Source: Kutzneria chonburiensis (GTDB taxonomy: Bacteria; Actinomycetota; Actinomycetes; Mycobacteriales; Pseudonocardiaceae). From it: a stretch of 64,000 nt of DNA. A model generated the notes under the pieces. The model ran no database searches. It saw only the letters and a list, made by a program, of their open reading frames with translations, and was not told where the DNA came from. Positions 6,435 to 10,055 of this stretch are shown one piece after another (the stretch's first letter is position 1; each line of letters starts with the position of its first letter). Made by a program: the position numbers and the translations under genes. The stretch covers positions 7,750,001-7,814,000 of the forward strand of contig NZ_CP097263.1 of the NCBI RefSeq assembly GCF_028622115.1, given 5' to 3'.

Positions 6435-7961
6435 ATGACCGGCCGCAGCGGCTTGACCGAAGGCGAGCGCGGTGACAGTCGTGGATACGGTCGGCTACTC
6501 CTGGTAGCGGTTCTCGTCCTGGCCATCGCCGCGACCGCCGTGCTCGTCCTGAGCAACGACGCGAGGTTCTTGCGCCTCGGCGTCCTCGCCGCGCTGTGGG
6601 CCGCCCTCGTCGGCGCCTTCCTCGCCGTGAAGTACCGCAGAGAAGCCGCGGCCAGCGAGGACGAGGTCGCCGACCTGCAGGCCGTCTATGAGCTGGAGCT
6701 GGAGCGCGAGGTCGCGGCCCGCCGCGAGTACGAGCTGGAGATCGAGGCCGAGACCCGTCGCCGGGTCGAGGAGGAGTCGCGGGAGGACCTGGAGGCGCTG
6801 CGCGGTGAGCTGCGCGCCCTGCGGGAGAACCTCGAGGCGCTGCTGGGCGGCGAGGTGCTGGTCGAGCGGGTGGCGCTGCGCGCGGAGTCGACGCGGATGC
6901 GGTCGCTGTCCGACCAGTCGCGGCTGCTGGCCGTTGGCGAGGACCGGATCATCGCCAAGGAGGACCGCAAGCCGATCACCGTCGGTTCGGTCCGCAAGGA
7001 GACGCCGGCCGACAAGTCGCCGGCCACCGAGCTGATCGAACGCATTCCGCACGAGCCGCTGCGGGCCAAGGAGCAGGCGCCGCGCCGTCCGGAGCCGAGC
7101 CGTCCGGAGGCGACCCGCCAGCCCAGCCGCAGCAACGCCCAGACCGAGGCGCTGAGCCGGTCGGCAGCGGCCGGACAGGCCCGGCGAGAGCCGCAGCGTC
7201 CGGCCCAGCCGGCCGCCACCCAGTTCGTGAACCGCCCGGCCGCCGCGAAGGCAGCCGAGCCGCGGCCGGCCGAGCGTCGGCCCGAGGCCCGCCCGCCGGA
7301 GACCCGTCAGCCTGAGCCGCGCAAGCCGGCCGCCGGTGTGCCCAACGTCGTCGGCATGCGGGTGCAGCCCTCACAGGCCCTGTCGCAGCCGATGCGGGCG
7401 CCGGACGCGCGTGAGCCGCGTCGTGCCGAGCCGCCGCGTGCGCCGCAGCAGCAGCCTCAACAGCAGCCCCAGCGCCCCGAGCCGGCCGCCGCAACGATGG
7501 CCATGCGCCTCAATCCGGAGATGAAGCAGCAGGCGCCAAGCCGTCAGCCGGCTACTGCCCCCGTGGATGCTGCCGGTCGCCGTCGTCGGCCCGAGGCCGC
7601 GAACGAGGCCACTCAGATGAGCCCGCGGCCCACGCCGGCCGAGACGTCCGGCCGTCGTCGCCGTCCCGAGCCCGCGCAGCAGGCGGCCGCCGCGCCGCCG
7701 CCCGAGGTGGACGGCCCGGTGTGGGACCCCGAGCTGGGCGACTGGGTGCCGAACTCGCTGGAGCTGCCGATCCCGGTGCGCACCGCGCCGCCGGTCGCGC
7801 CGCCGCCCGGCCCGGTGCCGTCGGCCCCGCCGCCGCCCGTGACGCCGCCGCCGGTCGTCGACACCGGCGCGCACGCCGCCGGCAAGTCCGTCAGCGAGCT
7901 GCTGGCCTCGTTGGGCCAGGAAGAGTCGCGCGGCCGCCGTCGCCGCCGTAGCGAGGACTAG
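6435..7961 (+). CDS. Rv3604c-like membrane protein with coiled coil and Pro/Ala/Arg-rich tail
   Basis: This 508-aa protein has two adjacent membrane helices near residues 21-40 and 45-65. A strongly charged Glu/Arg coiled coil follows (about 75-145). A long low-complexity tail rich in Pro, Ala, Arg and Gln fills most of the rest. The final residues (VSELLASLGQEESRGRRRRRSED) are highly charged. It sits where mycobacteria encode the Ala/Pro-rich membrane protein Rv3604c, between DUF3180 and the pantothenate genes. The tail contains repeated RRRRPE-type blocks that may be phosphorylated or bind nucleic acid, but this is speculation. The function is unknown. It is convergent with the NuoD-like gene, 1 bp apart. 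Confidence 0.85.
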   Translation: MTGRSGLTEGERGDSRGYGRLLLVAVLVLAIAATAVLVLSNDARFLRLGVLAALWAALVGAFLAVKYRREAAASEDEVADLQAVYELELEREVAARREYELEIEAETRRRVEEESREDLEALRGELRALRENLEALLGGEVLVERVALRAESTRMRSLSDQSRLLAVGEDRIIAKEDRKPITVGSVRKETPADKSPATELIERIPHEPLRAKEQAPRRPEPSRPEATRQPSRSNAQTEALSRSAAAGQARREPQRPAQPAATQFVNRPAAAKAAEPRPAERRPEARPPETRQPEPRKPAAGVPNVVGMRVQPSQALSQPMRAPDAREPRRAEPPRAPQQQPQQQPQRPEPAAATMAMRLNPEMKQQAPSRQPATAPVDAAGRRRRPEAANEATQMSPRPTPAETSGRRRRPEPAQQAAAAPPPEVDGPVWDPELGDWVPNSLELPIPVRTAPPVAPPPGPVPSAPPPPVTPPPVVDTGAHAAGKSVSELLASLGQEESRGRRRRRSED

Positions 7962-7962
7962 C

Positions 7963-9102
7963 TCACTTGTCGATGTCGCCGACCACGACCGCGAAGGAAC
8001 CGAGCACCGCGGGCAGGTCGGCCACCGCAGTTCCAGGCAGTAGAGCCGACAGCGCCTGCACATTGTTGAACGACGGTGTGCGGAGCTTGAGTCGCCACGG
8101 AGTCTTCTCGCCGCGTGAGGCCAGGTGCACGCCGGAAATGCCCAGCGGGGCCTCGGTCCACACGTAGACGGAGCCCTCGGGTGCCTTGACCGCCTTGGGC
8201 AGCCGCAGGTTCACCGGTCCGGACGGCAGCTCGTCGAGGATCCCGGCGATCAGCCGCAGCGACAGCTCGATCTCGCCGACGACACACCCGACGCGGGTCA
8301 AGGCGTCGCCATCAGTGCCCACTACGGGCTGGAAGTCTTGGTACGCAAGGTGTTCGCCGTCGCGGCGCAGGTCGACGTCGACGCCGCTGGCCCGCCCGGT
8401 CGGCCCCGTGACACCCAGCGCCAGCGCGGCTTCGTGACTGAGGACGCCGAGTCCGGCATGGCGCTCACGAAACGCGGTGCTGTCCACAGTGGACACGCGA
8501 ATCGCCGGCAGCAGCTCGGACAACGTCGTCAACAATGCCCGCACATTGGGGATCCAGGTCGCGGGCACGTCTTCGCGCAGGCCGCCGATCCGGTTGGCCA
8601 TGAAGTGGATCCGCCCGCCGGACGCCTGCTCCATCACCGCCTGCACGGCCTCGCGACCCTGCACCGCAGCAGTCGTGCCGGCCGTCGGCTCGCCGGTGAG
8701 CTGACGGGTCAGCGGGGCCAGGAACACCAGGTGCGCCAGCATCCGGTTCAACTCGCACAGCACCATGCGCAGCCGAACTGCCCGCGGCGGCACGTCCATG
8801 CCGGTCATGCGCTCCACGGCCAGTGCGACGGTGAGCTCGTTGCAGAAGGCGGCCAGCCAGTCGTGCCGGTTGGCCAGGGTGAGCACCTGCCGGTAGTCGC
8901 GGACCTCGAACAGCTTCTCCGCGCCGCGGTGCAGGTGCCCGACCAGCGGCTCGGCCTCGGTGACCACGTTGTCCTCGACGCCCAGCCGCAACCGGTACGC
9001 GCCGTGGGCCGACGGGTGCAGCGGGCCGAGGTCGATGACGTGGTCGACGCCGAGGTACTTGGCGCCCGCGCCGACGCCGACGGTGATCTGCACGGGTGTC
9101 AT
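7963..9102 (-). CDS. Orphan NuoD-like (complex I 49-kDa subunit) protein
   Basis: A 379-aa homologue of NADH-quinone oxidoreductase subunit D without any other nuo gene nearby. Family marks are the LGPLHPSAHGAYRL motif (residues ~25-38), the GHLHRGAEKLFE motif, the NRHDWLAAFCNE segment and a C-terminus ending VVVGDIDK, like the GEVDR end of NuoD. Authentic NuoD works in the Q module of complex I with NuoB, NuoC and NuoI, so a lone copy is unlikely to be the respiratory subunit. It may be a NuoD2-type paralogue. Its ATG overlaps the stop of an NDUFAF7-like methyltransferase, so the two are translationally coupled. The arginine in HPSAHGAYR (Arg37) matches the position I recall as the NDUFAF7 target in mitochondrial NDUFS2. 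Confidence 0.85.
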   Translation of the reverse strand: MTPVQITVGVGAGAKYLGVDHVIDLGPLHPSAHGAYRLRLGVEDNVVTEAEPLVGHLHRGAEKLFEVRDYRQVLTLANRHDWLAAFCNELTVALAVERMTGMDVPPRAVRLRMVLCELNRMLAHLVFLAPLTRQLTGEPTAGTTAAVQGREAVQAVMEQASGGRIHFMANRIGGLREDVPATWIPNVRALLTTLSELLPAIRVSTVDSTAFRERHAGLGVLSHEAALALGVTGPTGRASGVDVDLRRDGEHLAYQDFQPVVGTDGDALTRVGCVVGEIELSLRLIAGILDELPSGPVNLRLPKAVKAPEGSVYVWTEAPLGISGVHLASRGEKTPWRLKLRTPSFNNVQALSALLPGTAVADLPAVLGSFAVVVGDIDK

Positions 9103-10055
9103 GCTCGCACGAGGCTGATCGGCGCGTTTCGGGGACAGAGCAGCCAGTGGAAGCCGCCGAGCCCGGCCGAATCACGCAGCTCCGCCACCCGGCCGGCCCG
9201 GGCCGTCGCCGCCATCCAGGCCGCCGGATCGGTCAGCGCGAGCCCCGCCGCTGGCTGATCACCGGCAATCCCCAAGGCCGCCAACGCTTCCCGCTGTGTC
9301 AGGAGCTCGCCGGGTGCGACGGCCCGCACCGAGTCGAAGGCGACGTGGGCGGTGATGTCACAGCTGCCGTCCGGCACCGGCGGCACCTGCCGTCCATGCC
9401 GGTAGCCGGTCAGCGAGCCGGCGAACGGCCGCGAGGCCAGGAAATGCCCGTAGTCCACGGCCAGCGCGGCGCCGGCGACCACCCGGGACACCAGGTCCGC
9501 CCACGCCGCGTCCCGCCCCGACCCGATCTCGGCCCGCTGCCCCTCGGCCGCCAACGGCCACCAGGCGTCCAGCCAAGGCGAGGACACCGGATCGCCCAAG
9601 GATTCCGTGCCATCGGTGGCCACCTCGACCTCGACGGTCCTTTGCCCGTGCATCTGCACAACGCGGCACGGCAGCGAGTCCAGCCACTCGTGGGCGATGA
9701 CCAAACCCGTCACCTGATCGGGCAATTCCGACGACCACTCGACGCCGGCCGGCAACTCCGGCCGGGTCAGCTCCACGGCGCGCACCCGTAGCCGTCCGCC
9801 GAAGCGCTCGGACCGTGCGAACACCTGCGCCGCCAGCTCGCCGCCGCCGGCCCCCACATCCACGAAATCCAGCGGATTCGGCCGGTCCAGGGCCATGTCC
9901 ACCCGGTCCAGCAGGACCACCACCGCCTCGGCCAGCTCCGGCCCGACCAAGGGGGAGGTGCGGAAGTGGTCAGCCGGGCGCGCGCCGCCGGCGAAGAAGC
10001 CTTTCGGGCCGTAGAGCGCTGCCCGCCAAGCCGAATGCCAGTCGTGCAGTGCCAT
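9099..10055 (-). CDS. NDUFAF7/MidA-like SAM-dependent methyltransferase
   Basis: A class I methyltransferase of the DUF185 (MidA/NDUFAF7) family, about 318 aa. It shows an FVDVGAGGGELAA SAM-binding loop near residue 67, an ANELLD-like HEWLDSLP segment, and ALAVDYGHF with the family's Asp-Tyr-Gly, followed by RQVPPVPDGSCDITAHV. Mitochondrial NDUFAF7 dimethylates an arginine of the NuoD homologue NDUFS2. Here the downstream, overlapping gene encodes a NuoD-like protein, which makes an enzyme-substrate pair plausible. The ATG at 10055 is preferred over a GTG just before it; GAGG lies about 15 nt upstream. It is divergent from the PrsW gene with very little space between them. Confidence 0.85.
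   Translation of the reverse strand: MALHDWHSAWRAALYGPKGFFAGGARPADHFRTSPLVGPELAEAVVVLLDRVDMALDRPNPLDFVDVGAGGGELAAQVFARSERFGGRLRVRAVELTRPELPAGVEWSSELPDQVTGLVIAHEWLDSLPCRVVQMHGQRTVEVEVATDGTESLGDPVSSPWLDAWWPLAAEGQRAEIGSGRDAAWADLVSRVVAGAALAVDYGHFLASRPFAGSLTGYRHGRQVPPVPDGSCDITAHVAFDSVRAVAPGELLTQREALAALGIAGDQPAAGLALTDPAAWMAATARAGRVAELRDSAGLGGFHWLLCPRNAPISLVRA

Follow-up and report, generated by a model that had tools for sequence, protein, structure and literature searches.

In mitochondria, the methyltransferase NDUFAF7 symmetrically dimethylates Arg85 of NDUFS2 (PMC3829151, as far as its accessible text goes). The available parts of Carroll et al. (PMC3750175) place this dimethyl-Arg where Thermus has a Thr, about 7 Å from cluster N2, and describe the same Arg as modified in Paracoccus and unmodified in E. 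coli. According to excerpts of PMC8042128, the space that Yarrowia NDUFS2-R121, the equivalent residue, takes up by N2 is filled in Thermus by an Arg of NuoB; the mutants of that study leave the effects of charge and methylation at this residue undecided. The prokaryotic function of MidA/NDUFAF7-type enzymes has been inferred in silico only, as stated in the accessible part of a 2025 paper (PMC12455994). In Streptomyces, from which nuoD2 is already known by name, excerpts of PMC3765725 and PMC8388888 describe a second nuo set without E, F and G, with nuoA2, B2 and H2-N2 together and nuoD2 apart. Complex I-like enzymes of 11 subunits, for example Desulfitobacterium nuoABCDHIJKLMN, likewise have no N-module, and their direct electron donor is given as unknown in the available part of PMC11238625.

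Here we describe a nuoD2 gene of Kutzneria chonburiensis that lies beside the gene of an NDUFAF7-family methyltransferase (MT). Compared with NDUFAF7/MidA and NDUFS2 Arg85 (mitochondria, with the modification also in Paracoccus denitrificans), the MT family, the fold and the HRG Arg in a NuoD-type partner are the same; here, however, the predicted substrate is a paralogue of the main NuoD, which itself has no such Arg, and the genes of enzyme and substrate are linked. Unlike the Streptomyces nuo2 set, the window's lineage has no membrane arm genes beside nuoB2 and no second Nuo-type NuoH, and an MT goes unmentioned in the excerpts of PMC3765725 and PMC8388888. In contrast to the 11-subunit enzymes, the armless variant is reduced to B, C, D and I and has a Trp at the quinone-Tyr site. 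A search of the open-licence literature by titles and abstract starts returned no description of the MT–nuoD2 pairing, of a NuoB/NuoD arginine swap in actinobacteria or of an armless Q-module there.

The window, a stretch of 64,000 nucleotides, belongs to a genome of 10.4 Mb in one contig. On its minus strand, nuoD2 (7963..9102; 379 amino acids; Pfam Complex1_49kDa, 194 bits), the NuoD/49-kDa paralogue of a second complex I, follows the MT gene (9099..10055; 318 amino acids; Methyltransf_28). The sequence-only reading had described a 4-nt overlap of two genes, and the ORF coordinates bear this out: an ATGA at 9099..9102 holds both the start of nuoD2 and the stop of the MT gene. This overlap is not general among relatives. 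A gap of 0 between the two matches occurred in 2 of the 72 named loci with both genes, both from Kutzneria; in the others the genes stand apart, converge or diverge. The pair is flanked by what we take, from the translations, to be ftsH-folE-folP-folB-folK and panC-panD-coaX. A plus-strand gene (6435-7961) is convergent with nuoD2, one base separating their ends (window 7961-7963).

NuoD2 belongs to the PF00346 NuoD/complex I 49-kDa family by sequence and fold and falls below the canonical NuoD equivalog cut-offs (308 vs 360 bits for NF004739, 296 vs 459 for TIGR01962 and 291 vs 522 for NF008974). Its closest named matches, among the best 80 of 577 loci, are from Kutzneria and are 93% identical. 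Comparison with Kutzneria sp. CA-103260 gave dN 0.049 and dS 0.41, indicating purifying selection. A conserved strand, xLTVGxGxGA, opens the protein before the NuoD domain (residues 4-10 in the model; window 9076-9090).

The assignment of the second gene product to the NDUFAF7/MidA family (PF02636, COG1565), already proposed from the sequence, was confirmed by a PF02636 score of 81.5 bits against a cut-off of 23.3 and by a fold matching MidA/COG1565 structures. A whole-genome family search found no other PF02636 match in the window genome. The SAM-binding glycine motif VDVGAGGGEL (9834..9863, minus strand) is kept in 28 relatives and in relatives from the PDB, and the acidic motif EWLDSLP (9669..9689, minus strand) is the counterpart of EFFDALP in the NDUFAF7 homologue 5ztz. 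Residues G70, G72, E123 and D126 were invariant in the 28 relatives, so that both the SAM motif and the acidic ExxD motif are kept.

Arg37 (codon 8992..8994, minus strand), within HPSAHGAYR, had been named as the likely methylation target. The motif is indeed present in the translation, but the residue that matches bovine and human NDUFS2 Arg85 is Arg59 (codon 8926..8928, minus strand), in an HRG motif. In our alignment the Thr of Thermus HTG falls on Arg59 of NuoD2 (LHRGAEK), and because dimethyl-Arg replaces that Thr, Arg59 is the Arg85 equivalent. Arg59 was invariant in 25 aligned relatives, inside their longest invariant block; the Arg37 column in the same relatives reads R, Q or K. We therefore rejected Arg37 as the target; its poor conservation tells against the original proposal only in that the wrong residue had been named. 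Site 59 was Arg in 80 of 80 named loci (the best 80 of 577) and likewise in every long stretch of the order in which it could be read (48 of 48); a further stretch ended short of the site. The HRG loop is the worst-scored part of the NuoD2 structure model (pLDDT <50). On these sequence comparisons, we consider it quite likely that MT modifies Arg59.

NuoD2 had also been called an orphan with no other nuo gene present. Within the window this held: whole-genome searches of the NuoD, NuoC, NuoB and NuoH families gave no further match there. For the genome it did not. The window genome contains a full main nuo operon, whose NuoD reads HTG, with Thr at site 59. Elsewhere, searches with PF00329 and PF01058 revealed an additional NuoC and an additional NuoB adjoining each other; their locus is ordered NuoB2, NuoC2, NuoI2 (a two-cluster ferredoxin-type protein) and then an M48 peptidase, with no nuoD beside them. 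The redox set of this second enzyme (Nuo2) is thus split, with B2, C2 and I2 in one cluster and D2 in the window, nearly 1 Mb away with its MT. A third PF00346 match lies outside the window (G000:C1:2950054-2956987; L004, L008, L209) and is a fused NuoC/D-like gene with NuoB- and NuoH-like genes; we presume this set to be hydrogenase-4-type, with neighbours of the universal-stress type. A second nuoB2-C2-I2 cluster that lacks a nuoD in the same genome argues against an orphan, and NuoD2 very probably belongs with NuoB2-C2-I2.

The residues at the NuoB–NuoD joint are consistent with this assignment. Canonical NuoD1 had Thr at the site in all 71 loci, of which 41 belong to the order and 30 to other classes, and canonical NuoB1, paired with it, had Arg in all 68 readable loci. 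The second set shows the reverse: NuoB2 had Thr in every one of 51 stretches, drawn from 36 genomes, and NuoD2 has Arg. Three stretches from the phylum scan that read Arg and matched the NuoD1 query best were found to be NuoD2 pieces flanking MT genes (L170, L175, L178). Judged from the published geometry, NuoD2 would fit NuoB2, and with NuoB1 two arginines would meet at one place. Relative to the main 14-subunit-type actinobacterial complex I (mycobacterial 8e9g/8e9h), NuoD2 differs by Arg for Thr at 59 and by Trp for Tyr at 82, and its partner NuoB2 has Thr where NuoB1 has Arg.

The second of these changes concerns Trp82 (codon 8857..8859, minus strand), which stands at the site of Thermus Tyr87, the Tyr that binds the quinone headgroup. 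NuoD2 had Trp there in 128 of 128 readable stretches of the class (48 from the order and 80 named, the latter the best 80 of 577), whereas canonical NuoD had Tyr in 72 of 72. Outside the class, 40 stretches gave Trp in 31 and Tyr in 9. Among the quinone-headgroup residues of NuoD2, then, the His is kept and the Tyr is replaced by Trp; NDUFS2-Y144 is named as a headgroup ligand in the excerpts of PMC8042128. Trp82 was rejected as a mark of MT presence, since genomes without MT can have Trp, as seen in a regular-expression read-out of which only clear NuoD segments were used.

The distribution of the genes was surveyed in 150 genomes of the order. NuoD2 was called at E 2.1e-52 or better (the next match, at 4.4e-50, being canonical) and NuoB2 at 4.3e-34 or better (next 2.8e-30, canonical). 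NuoD2 occurred in 53 genomes, MT in 53 and NuoB2 in 51, with all three in 49 and NuoB2 in 50 of the 53 with NuoD2. Both NuoD2 and MT were present in 52 genomes, NuoD2 only in one (G008), MT only in one (G005, 86% complete) and neither in 96, so that 52 of 54 presences were concordant. NuoB2 was missing from G013, G096 and G024 (82, 82 and 93% complete), the last of which has NuoD2 and MT and gave no NuoB2 match. Presence was mixed within families (3 of 19 genomes in f1, 2 of 3 in f5 and 1 of 2 in f12, where the other genome is 86% complete), and, judged from these family counts, the pattern does not set a single clade apart from all others. Of 216 genomes in the class (thresholds of E 1e-100 for NuoD2 and 1e-6 for MT), 82 had both, 8 MT only and 6 NuoD2 only.

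The two genes are also repeatedly linked. Among the best 80 of 577 named loci, MT lay within 7 kb of NuoD2 in 72, upstream on the same strand in 55, downstream on the opposite strand in 11 and divergent in 6; seven of the other eight loci end at a contig end and one (L137) does not. Linkage thus survives rearrangement, and the set persists even where the genes are far apart, as in G070 (47 kb) and in G105 and G119 (different contigs). Co-occurrence in the order, exceeding chance, together with recurrent linkage led us to reject the idea of chance neighbours. The earlier proposal of an NDUFAF7-type enzyme beside a NuoD-type substrate is accordingly well supported by genomics, as the two are co-inherited, the target Arg is invariant in the class and the main NuoD lacks it.

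To describe the rest of Nuo2, we read the surroundings of NuoB2 (18-20 kb each) in 20 genomes and the window genome. Twelve genomes (families f5, f7, f13 and f15) had B2, C2 and H2, with A2 in nine and I2-N2 where the stretch reaches; in these full-arm stretches NuoD2 was seen only in G033 (74% complete), in two frames and with MT, beside N2 to A2. Nine genomes (f1, including the window genome, and f10) had B2-C2-I2 alone. None of A, H and J-N was found in the 18 kb read around B2 in the window genome, and a genome-wide search there gave a weaker match in the hydrogenase-4-like cluster but no second Nuo-type NuoH. Of 44 genomes searched for NuoH, 22 carried a second-type NuoH beside the canonical one; seven f18 genomes of the class are among them, and in G025 the second-type copy is partial. 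A single canonical-type NuoH, with the second type lacking, was found in G000, G111 and G083 (f1), in G008 and G022 (f9) and in 8 of the 10 f10 genomes; of the other two, G149 had three canonical-type matches and G075 none. G000, G044 and G082 had an additional weak match of 123-140 bits.

Loss of the arm genes goes with loss of particular segments. All 12 full-arm genomes and none of the 9 armless ones have PRQAD and SLW in NuoB2. The N-terminal helix of NuoI2 is present in all 7 full-arm genomes whose stretch includes I2 and in none of the 9 armless genomes, and PLEIGAITP of NuoD2 in 7 of 7 full-arm and 0 of 10 armless rows, arm status in this last case being taken from the NuoH search; G068 and G044 keep a related form. 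We assume all four segments to face the membrane arm. The N2 cysteine motifs were kept in 21 of 21 NuoB2 and both 4Fe-4S motifs in 16 of 16 NuoI2, including all nine armless NuoB2 and NuoI2. In the tree, the full-arm rows grouped at 85/95 with two out-group rows, and the armless rows fell outside this group, some on long branches; as the base was unresolved, a single event or a few may underlie the comparison with armless genomes. An armless lineage that lost its docking surfaces and kept the Fe-S cysteines, Arg59 and MT suggests a soluble, Q-module-like enzyme.

A different reading of the same genomes takes NuoB2-C2-D2-I2 for an extra Q-module: docked on the main complex I through the membrane arm of the latter, it would form a pump free of the NADH module. 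The absence of NuoH2 may be compatible with such docking, and in armless genomes a Nuo-type NuoH is supplied by the main operon alone. Moreover, B2-C2-I2 stands directly after nuoN of the main operon in all six f10 genomes read (L258-L262, L264), hinting at shared transcription with it, and about 13 kb from that operon in the window genome. We nevertheless regard this as unlikely, given that the armless genomes have lost segments presumed to face an arm.

It is also conceivable that MT methylates something else, or binds NuoD2 merely as a chaperone, and that the linkage has another reason. Arg59 was present in 6 of 6 NuoD2 genes of the class without an MT match. Outside the class, 40 NuoD2 stretches were taken and the site was readable in 19, all with Arg, 12 of these stretches being from genomes with MT and 7 from genomes without, "without" meaning no match to an Actinomycetes-built profile at 1e-6. 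These cases (6 of 6 in the class and 7 of 7 readable in other classes) made us reject the idea that Arg occurs only where MT is present. Arg is thus not tied to MT, and, as it outlives MT, MT may tune rather than enable. Conversely, MT occurred without NuoD2 in the 8 class genomes already counted, among them G501 and G573, both 100% complete, and in G420. The MT matches of G501 and G573 (L352, L353) are divergent and partial, and in one of them the scan shows an in-frame stop; they are perhaps remnants. NuoD2 of G530 and G583 (L346, L348), both without an MT match, reads HRS instead of HRG, and the MT-bearing ones read so far are mostly HRG; Ser after Arg was rejected as a mark of MT loss, being absent from G538, G606, G504 and G448. 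Wolbachia MidA is reported to methylate DNA in the accessible part of PMC12455994. Against another substrate stand the concordance of NuoD2 and MT in the order, the NDUFAF7 fold of MT and the fact that the residue known to be modified by this family is the counterpart of Arg59 in the counterpart of NuoD2, and we judge this explanation improbable, somewhat more so than docking.

That the armless genes are relics of a lost enzyme would account for the missing membrane arm and for several lost conserved segments. A NuoD2 dN/dS of about 0.12-0.14 between Kutzneria species, cysteine motifs intact in all nine armless NuoB2 and NuoI2 and the joint retention of B2, D2 and MT across f1 and f10 make such decay very improbable. 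The self-contained enzyme–substrate pair of the sequence-only reading, in which NuoD2 would work without other Nuo subunits and which accords with the lack of further nuo genes nearby, was given up once NuoB2, C2 and I2 turned up and is hardly credible beside the co-occurrence with NuoB2, the reciprocal Arg swap and the Streptomyces nuoA2-N2 operon with its displaced nuoD2 (excerpts of PMC3765725), all of which point to NuoD2 as the D subunit of a Nuo2 whose other genes lie elsewhere.

We therefore favor, as the likely reading of these sequences, a nuoD2 with a dedicated NDUFAF7-type arginine MT, NuoD2 being the D subunit of an N-module-less Nuo2. Its basis is co-inheritance, the reciprocal Arg swap, the missing second Nuo-type NuoH and docking motifs that decayed beside intact redox cysteines; methylation of Arg59, a role in assembly, solubility, and the electron donor and acceptor are inferred. 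MT would act on freshly synthesized NuoD2 and dimethylate its Arg59, much as NDUFAF7 modifies Arg85 of NDUFS2. The modified side chain would pack by cluster N2 of NuoB2, holding NuoD2 and NuoB2 together and steadying N2; the main complex I would have no need of methylation, as the NuoB1 Arg facing the NuoD1 Thr would fill the space. In many relatives Nuo2 has its own membrane arm. For the window's lineage we hold the chances of a soluble Nuo2 to be evenly balanced; its product would then be an Fe-S oxidoreductase of the Q-module type with four subunits (B2, C2, I2 and D2) and no membrane part. Electrons would pass from a donor, for which ferredoxin is a guess, to NuoI2, to N2 and to an acceptor at NuoD2, where Trp takes the place of the quinone-binding Tyr. 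More tentatively, and with slightly less than even confidence, we propose that in this enzyme N2 is the final cluster and the acceptor site is altered, and that the dimethyl-Arg is kept solely for building N2 and for the NuoB–NuoD joint, apart from proton pumping and NADH oxidation.

These findings bear on what mitochondria gain from dimethylating a single arginine next to the terminal Fe-S cluster of their complex I. They offer a natural comparison within one cell, in which the Arg comes from NuoB in one complex I and from NuoD, with a dedicated MT, in the second. The armless lineages would allow the modification to be considered apart from the membrane arm.
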